35,601 nucleotides of DNA from Chloroflexota bacterium (GTDB lineage Bacteria; Chloroflexota; UBA6077; FW602-bin22; JAMCYS01), in NCBI GenBank assembly GCA_023473795.1, contig JAMCYS010000161.1, forward strand, positions 1 to 35,601, in the 5' to 3' direction. Below are positions 1,097 through 10,727 of the stretch, in pieces (positions within the stretch are counted from its first letter, which is position 1; each line of letters begins with the position of its first letter). The notes beneath the pieces are model-generated. The model did no database searches. It was not told where the DNA came from and saw only the letters and a list, made by a program, of their open reading frames with translations. The translations under genes were made by a program, and so were the position numbers.

Positions 1097-1912
1097 TCAG
1101 CCTCCCGGCTTGATGGCCTTGACGAAGGCCGAAACCACCCGCACGCCCTCGGGCAGGCCGAGGTCGGCCGGCAGGCAGCACTGCATCTCCTCCCCCACGT
1201 CTTCCCGGCTGTACACCTTGAGCACCTGCACGTCCACCTGGCCGAAGCCGACGGCGGCCAGCTTGGCCCGGTATTCCTCCTCGGAGAGCGCCCCGGCGAT
1301 GCAGCTGGCCCAGAGCGCCAGCAGCCGCTGGGCCTCGGCCGGCAGCGCCCCGCCCTGGCTGACGATATCCGCCACGGCAAAGCGTCCGCCCGGCTTGAGC
1401 ACCCGGAAAGCCTCGCGCAGCACCGCCTCCTTGTCGGCCGAGAGGTTGATGACGCAGTTGGAGAGGATGACGTCCACCGCCGCGTCGGGCAGAGGAATGG
1501 CCTCGATCCGTCCCTTGAGGAACTCCGCGTTCGTCGCCCCCGCCTGCTGGGCGTTGGCGCGCGCCAGCGCCAGCATCTCGTCGGTCATGTCCAGCCCGTA
1601 GGCTTTGCCCGTCGGCCCTACCCGCCGCGCCGAGAGGAGGACGTCGATGCCGCCTCCCGAACCTAGGTCGAGCACCACCTCGCCCGGCTTGAGGTCGGCG
1701 AGCAGCACCGGGTTGCCGCAACCCAGCGAGGCCACGGCCGCCCCCTCCGGCACTTCGGCCAGTTCGTCCAGGTCGTAGATGCGTTGGGAGATCTTGTCCC
1801 CCGCCGGCGAGCAGCAACCCGTCGCCTTCTCCGTCTGCGCGCGCCGCGCCGCCTCGGCGTAGTGCTCGCGCACCGCGTCGACTATCTTCTCGCCTGCCAC
1901 TTGCTCCGCCAT
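1097..1912 (-). CDS. arsM: Arsenite S-adenosylmethionine methyltransferase
   Basis: The 271-residue protein transfers methyl groups from SAM to As(III), giving methylated arsenicals, in the cytoplasm. It has a class I methyltransferase fold: motif [11 protein letters not shown] at about 81-90, then GLDMTDEML at 106-114. The cysteines typical of ArsM are present: C33/C34 (TGCCSP), C65 (SLGCGNP), C153 (SNCVINL) and C204 (CIAGAL). The spacing matches the catalytic set of characterised ArsM proteins, and an extra CC pair lies at 245-246. The start is preceded by GAGAGGAGAGACAGG, a good ribosome site. It lies at the end of an arsR1 - small ORF - arsM unit, so arsenite probably induces it. Its products fit export by the ArsP-type permease at 9672-10727. 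Confidence 0.95.
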
Positions 1913-2220: not shown

Positions 2221-2550
2221 CTACGGCAGCAGTTCGCGCAGCCGCTCCAGCCTGGCTGGGTTCAGCTTATAGTGCACCCAGAGACCCCGCTTCTCCGCGG
2301 CCACCAGCCCCGCCTCGCGCAGCACCTTCAGGTGATGCGAGACCGTCGGCTGGGCCACGGCGCAGCAGGCCAGGAAGTCGCAAGCGCATACCTCGCCCTG
2401 CTCGCGCAGCTGCCGCAGGATGCTTAGGCGGGTCTCGTCGGCCAGCGCCCTGAAGAGGCTGGCGCCCTCCGCTAGGTCCGGGTACCGGCGTTCCGTGCCG
2501 CAGCAGCTGGGGGCCTTCTCTCCCGCGCGGAGGTCGTTTCTCATGGCCAT
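2221..2550 (-). CDS. arsR: ArsR-family arsenite-responsive repressor (ArsR1)
   Basis: A 109-residue winged-helix repressor. The metal-sensing stretch EVCACDFLACC resembles the ELCVCDLC site of classical ArsR and leads into the recognition helix (QPTVSHHLKVLREAGLV). A further SCC lies near the N-terminus (residues 15-17). The wing is KRGLWVHYKL. The ATG chosen has GGAG six bases upstream; a second ATG two codons later is possible. It is first in the arsR - ORF - arsM unit. An imperfect 20-bp palindrome at 2562-2581, just upstream, is the likely operator, implying autoregulation relieved by As(III) or Sb(III). Confidence 0.95.
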   Translation of the reverse strand: MAMRNDLRAGEKAPSCCGTERRYPDLAEGASLFRALADETRLSILRQLREQGEVCACDFLACCAVAQPTVSHHLKVLREAGLVAAEKRGLWVHYKLNPARLERLRELLP

Positions 2551-3549: not shown

Positions 3550-3783
3550 CTAGGCCAGCAGCTCGTCCAGTCGTCGCCGGTCGAAGCCCACCACTACCTC
3601 ATCCCCCACCAGAATCACCGGCGTCGTCAGGTAGCCCAGTTCCATTAGCTCCGCCATCGCCTGCTTGTCCACGGCGATATCCCGTTCACTGAACTCGATG
3701 CCACGCCGCGAAAGATACTCCTTCGCCATCTGGCAGAACATTCAACCGCTGCCTTGTGTGTAGATCACTACCTGCTTCGCCAT
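3550..3783 (-). CDS. Glutaredoxin-like selenoprotein (UxxC), TGA read as Sec
   Basis: Read from ATG 3783-3781 with GGAGGG five bases upstream, the frame gives MAKQVVIYTQGSG, an in-frame TGA at 3744-3742, then MFCQMAKEYLSRRG and on to residue 77. The TGA is at position 14, exactly where glutaredoxins have the first cysteine of C-x-x-C; C17 is the resolving cysteine. The TTP cis-proline motif is at 53-55 and the GFDR end is typical of small NrdH/Grx proteins (usual length 75-85). The thioredoxin at 9282-9536 has GSG-C-x-x-C in the same place, which supports Sec replacing Cys. A SECIS-like hairpin follows the TGA. Without recoding, only an ATG right after the TGA remains, with no ribosome site and a broken active site. 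It likely reduces disulfides or arsenate-cycle intermediates for the Acr3 module. A nonsense mutation or sequencing error is the alternative. Confidence 0.8.
3708..3744 (-). promoter_or_regulatory. UGA codon and candidate bacterial SECIS hairpin
   Basis: After the TGA (3744-3742) come 15 bases, then GCGAAGG (3726-3720), loop AGTAT (3719-3715) and CTTTCGC (3714-3708): a 7-bp stem with one wobble. The loop starts 22 bases past the UGA and has G at its second position. Both agree with published bacterial SECIS rules as I know them (loop 16-37 nt from UGA, G among the first two loop bases). Confidence 0.65.
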
Positions 3784-3871
3784 CTCTACCCTCCAGCGCC
3801 GGCAATGAGCGTATTTTGCCCAGTCCGCGAGCCTCGATTACACTGGCGCGACCTTGCTGTCTCCGCTGCCG

Positions 3872-4591
3872 CTAGCCTCGCGCCGTCTCCAGCAGTTCGG
3901 CGAAGCGTGGTGGCAGGCCGGAGGCTCGCACCGCCGCTGCGGCCGCCGCCACATCGTAGGCCACGCGCCGGAACGTCGCCGTGACGCCCGTCGGGCCCAC
4001 CTCCAGCAAGGCATAGCAGGCGCGCACGTCGCCGTCCTTGGGCTTGCCCACGCTGCCGTCGTTGACGAAAAGCACCCCCGCCACTTCCTTAGTATATGGC
4101 AGGTGGGTGTGGCCCATCACCAGCGCGTCGGCCTCTATGCTGCCCGCCAGGCGCTCGAAACTGGCTTGCGGCCGGTCCTCATAGAAGTACTCGTTGATCT
4201 TGCGCGGGCTGCCGTGCACCAGCAGTACCCGCCGCCCCTCCGCCGCGAAACGGATGTTGGCGGCCAGCCCACGCAGGAAGGCCTTGTTCTCCGGCGTCAC
4301 CCGCGCCTGCGTCCAACGCAGCGAAAGATCGCCCAGCCGCCGGCTCTCTTCTTCTCGGTAAGCGCAGCCGCACTCTTCCTTGTCGAAGCCGACGCCCTCG
4401 TCGTAGTTGCCCATCACCGTCGGGATGCCCCGCTCCCTGACGAGGGCTATCACCTCGTTGGGAAAGGCCCCGTAACCCACCAGGTCCCCCAGGCAGTAGA
4501 CCCCATCCACCCCCTGGGCGTCGGCATCCGCCAGCACCGCCTCCAGGGCGTGCAGATTGGCGTGGATATCGCTCAACACCGCTACTCGCAC
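3872..4591 (-). CDS. Calcineurin-like metallophosphoesterase
   Basis: A protein of about 239 residues with all the dimetal motifs of the YfcE/MJ0936-like branch: SDIHANLHAL at the N-terminus, GDLVGYG, GNYDE, LLVHGS and MGHTHLPY near the end. It would hydrolyse a phosphodiester or phosphomonoester in the cytosol; the substrate cannot be read from sequence. A middle segment (EECGCAYREEE) carries two cysteines. GTG at 4591 is chosen because the conserved strand VRVAVLSDIH starts there and AGGA lies upstream. The frame is open to 4711, but that extension is not conserved-looking. It follows acr3 by 94 bases and precedes the glutaredoxin by 88, so it is probably part of the arsR2 operon. Why arsenite efflux should carry this enzyme is not clear. 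Confidence 0.88.
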   Translation of the reverse strand: MRVAVLSDIHANLHALEAVLADADAQGVDGVYCLGDLVGYGAFPNEVIALVRERGIPTVMGNYDEGVGFDKEECGCAYREEESRRLGDLSLRWTQARVTPENKAFLRGLAANIRFAAEGRRVLLVHGSPRKINEYFYEDRPQASFERLAGSIEADALVMGHTHLPYTKEVAGVLFVNDGSVGKPKDGDVRACYALLEVGPTGVTATFRRVAYDVAAAAAAVRASGLPPRFAELLETARG

Positions 4592-4685
4592 GCTGCGCCA
4601 TCCTTTCCGCCTGGGCGACCAGGCTGGGGCCGTTGCACCTCTTCGCTCGCGGGTGAACGGGGCAGATGAATGGCCGGCCGCGGTT

Positions 4686-5819
4686 TCAGCCGGCGTCCCT
4701 ACTACTGGCATTTATCCTAGACACCCTGGCCGTCCCCGGTCTGGTCGCTGCCCCGGGAAACAGCTTCCCCTTCAACCACAAGGAAACGTACACGAGCCCG
4801 ATGAGGACCGGCACCTCAATCAAAGGCCCGACCACAGCCGCCAGCGCCTGCCCTGAGGCAATGCCGAACACGCCGATGGCCACGGCGATAGCCAGTTCGA
4901 AGTTGTTCGAGGCCGCCGTGAAGGAGAGCGTCGTCGCCTGGCCGTAGGGGAAGCCCAGCTTCCAGGACATGAAGTAGGACACGGCGAACATCAGGCCGAA
5001 GTAAGCCAGCAGCGGGATGGCGATTCTCACCACGTCCAGCGGCAGGGCCAGAATCACCTCGCCCTTGAGTGAGAACATCACCACGATGGTGAACAGCAGG
5101 GCCAGCAGCGCCGTGGGCGCGAGCTTGGGCATCAAGACCTTGTCGTACCACTGCTTGCCGCGCGCCTTGATGCCGAAGTAGCGGGTGATCATGCCGGCCG
5201 CCAGGGGAATGCCCAGGAAGATGAGGACCGACTTGGCGATGTCCCAGAACTCGATGCGGATTACCTGGCCCGCCCCGAGCCCCAGCCAGGCCGGCAGCAC
5301 GGTGATGAAGAAGTAGGCGAGTACGGAGTAGAACAGCACCTGGAAGATCGAGTTCAGCGCCACCAGCACGGCGCAGTACTCGTTGTCGCCCTCCGCCAGC
5401 CAGTTCCAGATCAAGACCATGGCGATGCAGCGCGCCAGGCCCACCAGGATGAGCCCCGTCCGGTACTCCGGCAGGTCGGGCAACAGCAGCCAGGCCAGGG
5501 CGAACATGATGACCGGCCCCACGATCCAGTTCTGGATGAGCGAGACCACGAACATCCGCCAGGCGTTCCTGACCTTGCCCAGCTCCTCGTACTTTACCCG
5601 GGCCAGGACAGGGTACATCATCCAGAGCAGGCCCAGGGCGATGGGCAAGGACACCGTGTCGATGCGGGCCGAGTCCAGCGCCTTGGCGACACCGGGGTTG
5701 ACCGCGCCCAGCCCCAGCCCCAGGGCCATCGCCGTGAAGATCCAGAGGGGCAGGAAGCGGTCGAGCGTCGAGAGTCTCTTGACCGCGCCGGCCCGCGCGG
5801 TCGCTGTACCTTCAGCCAT
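4686..5819 (-). CDS. acr3: Acr3-family arsenite efflux permease
   Basis: A 377-residue, about ten-helix inner-membrane carrier exporting As(OH)3. Family signatures include [13 protein letters not shown] with its conserved cysteine, the following [35 protein letters not shown], and [15 protein letters not shown] close to the end. Two ATGs are possible. The second (5819, [11 protein letters not shown]) is preferred because GGAGGAG lies seven bases upstream of it; the first (5825) is too close. The gene begins 20 bases after arsR2, so it is directly arsenite-regulated. The length is a little above the usual 350 because of polar tails at both ends. Confidence 0.96.
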
Positions 5820-5839
5820 CCACATACTCCTCCACTATA

Positions 5840-6214
5840 TCAGCATTTCGACCCGGGGAGCCGGCAAGAGGCGGGCGTCGAGTCCGTCCGCGAGGTATCC
5901 AACAGGTCGCCGAGGTGTACCTTGAGGCGGCAGGCGCCCGCCTCGTCCAGGGCGTAGTAGACCCAGCGCCCGTCGTCGGGGTCGCGGCGGTCACGCACCA
6001 GGCCCGCGCGCTTGAGCACCCCCATGTGATGGGAGATCGTGCCCTGGCTGAGGCCCAGCTCTTCTGTTAGGTAGCAAACGCACTGCTCGCGCTCCGACAG
6101 GAGTGTGACAATGCGCAGACGCGTGGGGTCAGCCAGGGCCGACAGCGCTAGCCATAGGCCATCCTCGACGGGCAGCTGCGCCTCGCGCTGCCGCTGCGGA
6201 ACACGTCCGGCCAC
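5840..6214 (-). CDS. arsR: ArsR-family repressor of the acr3 operon (ArsR2)
   Basis: A winged-helix regulator of about 124 residues. The thiol site EREQCVCYL precedes the recognition helix SQGTISHHMGVLKRAGLV, and the wing RDPDDGRWVYYAL follows. The C-terminal tail has further cysteines (PASCRLPGSKC). The frame is open to 6367, but GTG at 6214-6212 is chosen: GGGAGGG lies four to five bases upstream and the promoter and operator occupy the earlier part. acr3 starts 20 bases downstream. Divergence from ArsR1 and ArsR3 suggests three independently acquired modules. Confidence 0.92.
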   Translation of the reverse strand: MAGRVPQRQREAQLPVEDGLWLALSALADPTRLRIVTLLSEREQCVCYLTEELGLSQGTISHHMGVLKRAGLVRDRRDPDDGRWVYYALDEAGACRLKVHLGDLLDTSRTDSTPASCRLPGSKC

Positions 6215-6232
6215 GGCACCCTCCCACGATGG

Positions 6233-6276
6233 ATTGACCACAATCAATGTATATAACGTCGCCGCACTCCTGTCAA
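6233..6276 (-). promoter_or_regulatory. arsR2-acr3 promoter with ArsR operator
   Basis: TTGACA (6276-6271), a 17-base spacer and TATACA (6253-6248). Directly downstream is the inverted repeat ATTGA-N6-TCAAT (6248-6233). This is a strong promoter with a dyad at the start site, suitable for ArsR2 repression. Confidence 0.65.
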
Positions 6277-6296
6277 GCTCACTATGAGACCTAATC

Positions 6297-6656
6297 TCAA
6301 TGGCCACCGAACGCCGAATATGCCTGGCTTTGGCGAGTTGAAAGCCAGCGAGGTAGTGACTTAGCAATGGTCGCTATTAATGCCACGTGGCGGCGGAGTC
6401 GCAGACCCTGGGCTGCCGTCGGCCAGACGCGGTCTCGGTTGCCTGCTATCCCTTTCCGCACGGCTAGTACAGCCAAGACGGCCAGCGCCGCCATCACGGC
6501 CGCGAAGCCCACGCACCAAAGACACACCGCCCTGGTGACGAGGAACTCGCTGTAAGTAACGTAGACGGAGAAGATGGCCCCGGCGGCGACCACGGCCAGC
6601 ACCGCTATCTGAGCCAGGTAGGTTGCGTCGCCGTGCTCCCGCCTCCGCCCGCTCAC
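6297..6656 (-). pseudogene. 5'-truncated vitamin K epoxide reductase-like protein
   Basis: Residues about 14-70 match only the C-terminal half of bacterial VKOR: a helix, then VYVTYSEFLVTRAVCLWCVGFAAV with the membrane CxxC (CLWC) that reduces quinone. The first helix and the loop cysteine pair normally needed for relay to DsbA-like partners are absent. The GTG start overlaps the methyltransferase stop (GTGA at 6656-6653), so it can be translated by coupling. The last 45 residues (after LAVRKG) do not look like VKOR. It may be a decayed gene or a shortened, still-expressed thiol-quinone oxidoreductase piece. Confidence 0.65.
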
Positions 6657-9281: not shown

Positions 9282-9536
9282 CTACGCCTGCTGAGCCGCT
9301 CTGGCGCTGGTGATCCAACTGCTCAGTTCGGCCTTGTTCGGGATGCGCCCCGCCGATTTGACCTCGCCGTCAATCACTAGCCCAGGGGTCGCCAGGATGC
9401 CGTAGGACATTATCTGCTTGAAATCCGTTACCTTCTCAATCTCGGCTGGCACTTCCAGCTCGCCGACGACCTCGCGCGCCAGCGCCTCCAGGCGCTTGCA
9501 GCTGGCGCAGCCCGAACCCAGCACCTTGATCTCCAT
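9282..9536 (-). CDS. Small thioredoxin-like (MTH895/redox-active disulfide type)
   Basis: An 84-residue protein beginning MEIKVLGSGC with active site C10-A-S-C13 and the cis-proline ATPGLVI. The family (thioredoxin_3) is commonly placed next to ArsP/UPF0718 permeases, as here. It would provide thiol reduction in the cytosol, possibly for the permease's TPFCSCS cysteines or for arsenicals. ATG 9536 is preferred: it starts the first beta strand and AGGAAAGGG lies upstream. An upstream in-frame ATG (9560) would add a basic, unconserved octapeptide. It lies 135 bases after the permease, with a palindrome in between. Confidence 0.9.
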   Translation of the reverse strand: MEIKVLGSGCASCKRLEALAREVVGELEVPAEIEKVTDFKQIMSYGILATPGLVIDGEVKSAGRIPNKAELSSWITSARAAQQA

Positions 9537-9587
9537 TGCTTTCCCTTTCCTGGTTCTCATGAGAATGGTTAGGCGCGATTGGCATCT

Positions 9588-9671: not shown

Positions 9672-10727
9672 CTAGACCGCGAGAACCCAGTTGAACAGAT
9701 AACCCACCAAGATGATCCCCGTCCCTACCACGCCTAGAAACACGGCGATCAACTGCCACTTCAGCACTCGCCGCAGGATGATCACCTCCGGCAGCGAGAG
9801 GGCGATAACTGCCATCATAAAGGCCAGCACCGTCCCCAGGGCAGCCCCCTTCTCCATCAGAGCCTGCACGATGGGGATGATGCCTGCGGCGTTGGCGTAC
9901 ATCGGGATGCCCACCAGAACGGCCACCGGCACCGACCACCAGGCCTTCTTGCCCATGATGCCGGCCATGAAGTCCTCCGGCACGTAGCCGTGAATGGCCG
10001 CGCCCACGGCGATGCCGACGACCACGTAGGGCCAGACCTTGCCCACGATGTCCCGCACCGCCTGCCAAGCGTAGGCGACGCGATCATTCCAGGTACGCCG
10101 CTCGTCGGGCAGGGCCGCGCGGCCCAGGCGCAGCTCGTAGACCCAGTCGGCCACGTAGCGCTCGAGACCCAGCCGGCCGATTACCCAGCCGGCCGTTATA
10201 GCGATGGCCAGGCCCGTTCCGATGTACAGCGCCGCCACTCGCCAGCCGAACATCCCGAACAGCAGCACCACGGCCACCTCGTTGATCATCGGCGCGGCGA
10301 TGAGGAAAGAGAAGGTCACGCCCAGCGGCACGCCCGACTCGACGAAGCCCAGGAAGAGCGGTACGGCCGAGCAAGAGCAGAAGGGTGTGACTATGCCCAG
10401 GCCCGCGGCCAGAACGTTGCCGACGCCCTCTCGCTTGCCGCCCAGGGCGCGGCGCGTGCGCTCGGGGGTGAAGAAGGAGCGCACGATGCCCACGGCAAAG
10501 ACGATCAGCGCCAGCAGGAGCAGAATCTTGGGTACGTCGTAGAGGAAGAAGCCCACCGCCGAGCCCAGCTGGCTCGCCGGGGCGAGCCCCAGCAACCGGT
10601 AGGTTACGAAATCCGCCGCCGCGGGCAGCAGACTGTAGGCCGCCAACCAGAGCAGGCCCGCCACGGCCAGCCTGGGCGCGAGTGTAGCCAGTCCGTTCTG
10701 GCGCGCCGTCGTCGTCATTCCTGCCAT
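9672..10727 (-). CDS. arsP: ArsP-type (UPF0718) organoarsenical efflux permease
   Basis: A 351-residue membrane protein with about eight to ten helices. The hallmark TPFCSCSAVPLFLGFVE at about 114-130 has the paired cysteines (C117, C119) that ArsP uses to bind trivalent organoarsenicals. GVPLGVTFSFLIAAPMINEVA and GIPMYANAAGIIPIV are further family blocks. Characterised members export methylarsenite and aromatic As(III), which suits a neighbour making methylated arsenic (ArsM). Some UPF0718 members have other roles, so the substrate is inferred. AGGAG precedes ATG 10727 by seven bases. It follows arsR3 by 40 bases. Confidence 0.85.
   Translation of the reverse strand: MAGMTTTARQNGLATLAPRLAVAGLLWLAAYSLLPAAADFVTYRLLGLAPASQLGSAVGFFLYDVPKILLLLALIVFAVGIVRSFFTPERTRRALGGKREGVGNVLAAGLGIVTPFCSCSAVPLFLGFVESGVPLGVTFSFLIAAPMINEVAVVLLFGMFGWRVAALYIGTGLAIAITAGWVIGRLGLERYVADWVYELRLGRAALPDERRTWNDRVAYAWQAVRDIVGKVWPYVVVGIAVGAAIHGYVPEDFMAGIMGKKAWWSVPVAVLVGIPMYANAAGIIPIVQALMEKGAALGTVLAFMMAVIALSLPEVIILRRVLKWQLIAVFLGVVGTGIILVGYLFNWVLAV

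Follow-up and report, generated by a model that had tools for sequence, protein, structure and literature searches.

Gene content of the arsenic island

The window, a stretch of 35,601 nucleotides from a Chloroflexota genome, carries a small redoxin gene within a group of arsenic-resistance genes (Table 1). On a single strand, an arsR-family regulator is followed by acr3, a metallophosphoesterase gene, a gap of 88 bases, and the redoxin. Co-transcription of the redoxin with acr3 appears likely. The surroundings of this arsR-acr3-redoxin series include arsM, two more arsR-family genes, an ArsP-family permease, and an ArsE-like thioredoxin. The last of these had been described in the initial annotation as a Cys-type thioredoxin with a GSG-C-x-x-C motif, and it corresponds to that description. 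A gene of the N6/N4 DNA methylase family (7903-6653, minus strand) separates the acr3 and ArsP parts of the island.

Behind the redoxin lies a separate unit, which consists of a GDT1-family cation antiporter gene (3326-2640, minus strand) and, directly ahead of it, a match to the Mn2+ (yybP-ykoY) riboswitch (3492-3350, minus strand). The match reaches 32.1 bits against a gathering threshold of 45 (E = 5e-7 in a 601-base search), and it probably represents a Mn2+ riboswitch. A promoter-like site at 3530-3501 precedes both elements.

Table 1. Features of the redoxin locus and its arsenic island (positions in the window).
Feature	Position	Strand	Evidence
arsM, arsenite methyltransferase	1097..1912	-	NF008823, 320.8 bits, over cut-off
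Second arsR-family regulator	2221..2550	-	Pfam HTH_5, 1.7e-14
Predicted selenocysteine glutaredoxin-like gene	3550..3783	-	77 residues + TAG; one internal TGA in frame; read with Cys at codon 14, Pfam Glutaredoxin E = 2.8e-15
SECIS-like hairpin GCGAAGGA-GUA-UCUUUCGC, in the coding region	3708..3726	-	Same hairpin and spacing in 28/31 TGA and 0/16 Cys homologues; compensatory changes
TGA in frame at codon 14, where the UxxC active site begins	3742..3744	-	Same column: TGA in 30 further homologues, TGC/TGT in 16
Ribosome-binding site GGAGG, 5' of the ATG	3784..3800	-	From sequence
Metallophosphoesterase (YfcE-like), upstream neighbour of the redoxin	3872..4711	-	Pfam Metallophos_2, 1.4e-24; TIGR00040 over cut-off
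acr3, arsenite efflux gene	4686..5825	-	TIGR00832, 441 bits, over cut-off
arsR-family regulator preceding acr3	5840..6367	-	Pfam HTH_5, 6e-18
Cys-type ArsE/MTH895 thioredoxin-like gene	9282..9560	-	TIGR00412 over cut-off
ArsP-family permease	9672..10727	-	Pfam ArsP_1, 7.5e-75

Reading frame and family placement of the redoxin

The redoxin frame reads MAKQVVIYTQGSG-TGA-MFCQMAKEYLSRRG...LDELLA-TAG, and its full product would be MAKQVVIYTQGSG-(TGA)-MFCQMAKEYLSRRGIEFSERDIAVDKQAMAELMELGYLTTPVILVGDEVVVGFDRRRLDELLA, followed by TAG. The TGA is the sole internal stop. The features proposed in the initial annotation were recovered: a ribosome-binding site and ATG that open this frame with a TGA at codon 14 as its only interruption, an intact small glutaredoxin downstream, a TGA that coincides with the opening Cys of the C-x-x-C motif, and loss of the active site in automatic gene calling. 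With Cys substituted for Sec, the protein matches PF00462 at 56.7 bits (cut-off 22.9) over profile positions 1-60 of 60, that is, across the whole domain. The closest sequence of solved structure is glutaredoxin 7c10 (E = 3e-18). An ATG stands directly 3' of the TGA, and a plain list of open reading frames accordingly begins there and reports 3741-3550, a product of 63 residues from which the catalytic position has been lost. Compared with the nearest homologue, non-synonymous differences per site are fewer than synonymous ones on both sides of the TGA, the part before it comprising 13 codons only.

Selenocysteine glutaredoxins (PF00462, UxxC) form an experimentally verified family (PMC13188914). 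A 2006 survey listed three of them among bacteria, together with three selenoprotein families in Chloroflexi (PMC1794560). Sec glutaredoxins are therefore already known as a kind, and the window redoxin is a further member. Like the others, it is small, consists of a single glutaredoxin domain, and is predicted to carry Sec first in UxxC. Unlike the family as listed, it occurs in Chloroflexota, displays a GSG-U-[ML]-F-C motif, and resides inside an arsenic-resistance cluster. A relationship also exists with the Uxx-star glutaredoxin-like (seleno)proteins (NF041212, NF041211, and NF041114). The GxGU motif of UXX-star family 2 (NF041211; PMC13188914) resembles the GSGU of the window redoxin, although its scores fall below the cut-offs of all three models (60.5 against 66, 47.3 against 100, and 31.2 against 72, respectively).

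Among NCBIfam models, the top match is the YruB family TIGR02196 (66.1 bits), which shares size and domain with the redoxin. The score remains below the cut-offs of TIGR02196 (88.55) and of the NrdH-type model TIGR02194 (85.75), and the redoxin differs in having Sec for Cys. The ArsE/MTH895 family is represented in the same island by its Cys-type member, whereas the Sec redoxin, at only 23.3 bits, stays below the cut-off of 62 for this family.

The window genome encodes a second glutaredoxin with an in-frame TGA, fused to a PDZ domain, with the motif STPT-U-PYC and a strong hairpin of its own (contig C80, 963-1175, minus strand). This protein passes NF041212 with 69.9 bits. Similarly long open frames occur in several homologues of the class.

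Conservation of the TGA position among homologues

Homologues of the redoxin are present in 23 of the 29 genomes of the class, mostly with one internal TGA, and in 142 of 400 genomes sampled across the phylum. The initial annotation proposed an alignment of homologues to look for Cys or Sec at codon 14. Among 47 fetched sequences, the active-site codon is TGA in 31 and TGC or TGT in 16, always in the same column. With this shared position, a sequencing error and a private mutation can both be dismissed as the origin of the TGA.

The nearest homologue shares 61% identity and comes from a Chloroflexi metagenome bin (G012), which is classed in the same order as the window genome. Its TGA is followed by CTG and not by ATG. 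A search with a two-sequence alignment returned only this homologue and one distant match. At the threshold applied, class-level searches around two more distant homologues (in genomes G038 and G043) added no other relatives. In plasmid records, all homologues are below 60% identity, and the best match is a Cys form.

In a cross-count, selA was found in 39 of the 41 genomes among those listed with a TGA homologue. This correlation is weakly informative within the phylum because selA is common there, being present in 320 of the 400 genomes.

A candidate SECIS hairpin downstream of the TGA

A hairpin with arms at 3726-3719 and 3715-3708 follows the TGA within the coding region. It can be drawn with 7 bp around AGUAU or with 8 bp around GUA, and the minimal segment has a folding energy of about -10 kcal/mol. 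The initial annotation had placed a 7-bp hairpin with loop AGTAT at 22 bases past the TGA. The hairpin itself stands, but this figure corresponds to the distance to the five-base loop; the stem begins at 15 bases, and the loop lies about 22-23 bases past the TGA. Bacterial SECIS elements require a hairpin shortly after the TGA whose loop opens with a G, and the window gene has this arrangement.

Judged by folding energy, the minimal segment does not stand out from shuffled sequences (z -1.3), and a longer segment gives z -2.6. When the window peptide was recoded at random with synonymous codons, 0.07% of the recodings formed a stem of 8 bp at this position. An Rfam search of the window at the gathering threshold returned no match, so the SECIS assignment was tested through comparison of homologues.

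For this comparison, the hairpin was scored as present if a stem of at least 5 bp occurred at equal spacing after the TGA. Of the 31 TGA homologues, 28 possess a hairpin with a loop-proximal G at equal spacing, and three do not form a clean 5 bp stem; all 16 Cys homologues lack the hairpin (Fisher p 6e-10, uncorrected for relatedness). When relatedness was taken into account, every informative pair pointed in the same direction, the number of independent pairs being too small for significance. In the 23 TGA homologues that share one register, 94% of stem cells are paired, and in 16 cells both sides have changed. The observed measures of paired cells, double changes, and covariation were each equalled by none of 500 shuffles, and slid registers performed far worse. 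The hairpin pattern is that predicted for a bacterial SECIS element, and protein conservation alone does not explain it.

Selenocysteine machinery of the genome

The window genome is available as a draft assembly of 4.44 Mb in 170 contigs with 96% completeness. The initial annotation proposed that it be searched for selA, selB, selC, and selD. The search recovered selA, selB, and selC, the last as a tRNA-Sec gene with anticodon TCA. No canonical selD was recovered from the assembly. The best selD candidate, an AIR-synthase-family gene adjoining selB, reaches 84 bits where the cut-off is 125. Its scores for hypE and thiL are higher than for selD, and it stays below all of those cut-offs. A thioredoxin reductase gene is also present.

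Canonical selD occurs in 22 of the 29 genomes of the class, and 21 of these 22 selD genes hold one in-frame TGA. It was likewise not found in genomes G011 (96% complete) and G012 (74% complete), both of which carry the TGA redoxin and selA. A possible adjacency of tRNA-Sec and selD in relatives was considered as an explanation for the missing gene, and no such link was found. Either selD was missed in the assembly or a divergent enzyme has replaced it.

Two further observations concern the neighbours of these genes. An FdhD-like gene, named by eye from its sequence, lies just downstream of selA. About 250 bases past tRNA-Sec, at the end of its contig, an open reading frame with a twin-arginine signal was observed (tRNA-Sec and frame at L009, 1501-1597 and 1841-1908). 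This frame possibly encodes the alpha subunit of a formate dehydrogenase.

Proposed decoding and catalytic mechanism

Ribosomes would start at the ATG at 3783 and reach the UGA at codon 14, where the coding-region hairpin is predicted to recruit SelB carrying Sec-tRNA(UCA), leading to Sec insertion. Translation would then continue to the TAG, and the resulting glutaredoxin/NrdH-like redoxin of 77 residues would have U-x-x-C as its active site. In the probable reaction, the presumed substrate, a disulfide or an oxidised thiol, is attacked by the selenolate, which the resolving Cys17 then releases. The likeliest electron donor for re-reduction is a flavoprotein of the thioredoxin reductase type. 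The place of the gene behind arsR-acr3 suggests production together with the arsenic genes and in their service. Computation directly provides the frame, the position of the TGA, the conservation of the hairpin, and the genes for selA, selB, tRNA-Sec, and thioredoxin reductase; the steps that connect them are a proposal.

The Sec insertion put forward in the initial annotation is strongly supported by the machinery genes, by the position-specific conservation of the TGA, and by the restriction of the hairpin to TGA homologues. On this genomic evidence, the redoxin is very probably a functional selenoprotein gene.

Alternative interpretations

Other readings of the TGA have to be weighed against selenocysteine. 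The codon might act as an ordinary stop that yields a 13-residue peptide, with a restart at the next ATG to give a 63-residue protein without its first active-site residue. The ATG immediately after the TGA and the output of the ORF caller agree with such a scheme. However, the ribosome-binding site belongs to the start at 3783, the strand that precedes the TGA shows protein-level conservation (including YTQ-GSG), and the CTG of the nearest homologue offers no equivalent ATG. An ordinary stop would also leave the fixed TGA/Cys column and the hairpin limited to TGA homologues without explanation, and we judge it very improbable. Decay of the gene or a sequencing error would require a single base change from TGC or TGT to TGA, and the draft assembly is divided into many contigs. 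Nevertheless, the same TGA recurs in 30 other homologues from independent genomes, as well as in another gene of the window genome, the redoxin gene contains no other lesion, and its protein is under constraint, which makes such an accident hardly credible. The frame would be open as well if UGA had been reassigned to an ordinary amino acid throughout the genome. Against this stand the precise location of the TGA at the catalytic Cys and the presence of tRNA-Sec. Global reassignment was rejected because TGA terminates many normal genes, including arsM, acr3, and arsR2, and its probability is negligible. Selenocysteine insertion remains the preferred reading.

A different alternative accepts the selenoprotein and disputes its task. 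The redoxin may be a general thiol-disulfide redoxin that entered the arsenic cluster by chance or through loose co-transfer and has no arsenic-specific job. The nearest homologue speaks for this, as it lies beside a gene read as hslV from its sequence and outside any metal island. Further support comes from the 88-base gap to the phosphoesterase gene and from the independent Mn-riboswitch/GDT1 unit that follows. On the other side, the redoxin is on the same strand behind arsR-acr3, and the next two homologues are located near arsM and merA-merB, which hints at a metal(loid) link. We consider a general function an even proposition.

Is the arsenic setting shared by relatives?

The initial annotation had linked the redoxin to arsenite or arsenate redox on account of its place with arsR2 and acr3. 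Its position in a cluster with arsR-acr3 and arsM was confirmed, but the nearest homologue falls outside any arsenic cluster; in the same-neighbourhood test of the nearest homologues, the arsenic cluster was not kept. Because the island is not fixed among them, an arsenic-redox role can be regarded as plausible at most.

More distant relatives provide additional context. In G038, the redoxin lies about 2 kb from arsM, with genes for a NifS-like cysteine desulfurase and a NifU-like scaffold between them and a DsrE-type sulfur carrier beyond (L083, 1959-6136). In G043, the TGA redoxin (5077-5307, minus strand) is about 1.3 kb from a merA that passes the MerA cut-off and is itself followed by a merB-like gene (L082, 3717-8883). 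Directly downstream, this redoxin adjoins a second flavoprotein that resembles MerA and dihydrolipoamide dehydrogenase. These neighbourhoods offer hints of a metal(loid) theme across the relatives of the redoxin. Four redoxins with the motif [SG]G-U-[ML]-F-C were seen, three of them in or near metal(loid) islands, and they are not resolved as one clade in the tree. Indeed, the tree of 47 short proteins has too poor a resolution to date switches between Sec and Cys or to show a four-member clade.

A specific arsenic role for the window redoxin is possible, at slightly less than even chances. A broader proposal holds that a distinct Chloroflexota branch of Sec redoxins with the [SG]G-U-[ML]-F-C motif moves with ars and mer islands, and that its selenolate handles thiol-bound arsenic or mercury instead of performing housekeeping tasks. 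This proposal is speculative and would be unlikely on present evidence.

Implications

Routine annotation may truncate redoxin genes of this type, since the TGA has an ATG directly behind it and the encoded protein scores below the cut-offs of curated selenoprotein models. The homologue set constitutes a clean natural experiment, in which Sec and Cys forms of one small redoxin exist and the hairpin accompanies only the TGA. According to a 2026 review, the precise roles of selenoproteins in arsenic and mercury detoxification still need investigation (PMC13188914). If the metal(loid) link holds true, a selenocysteine redoxin would be added to the detoxification of arsenic and mercury.
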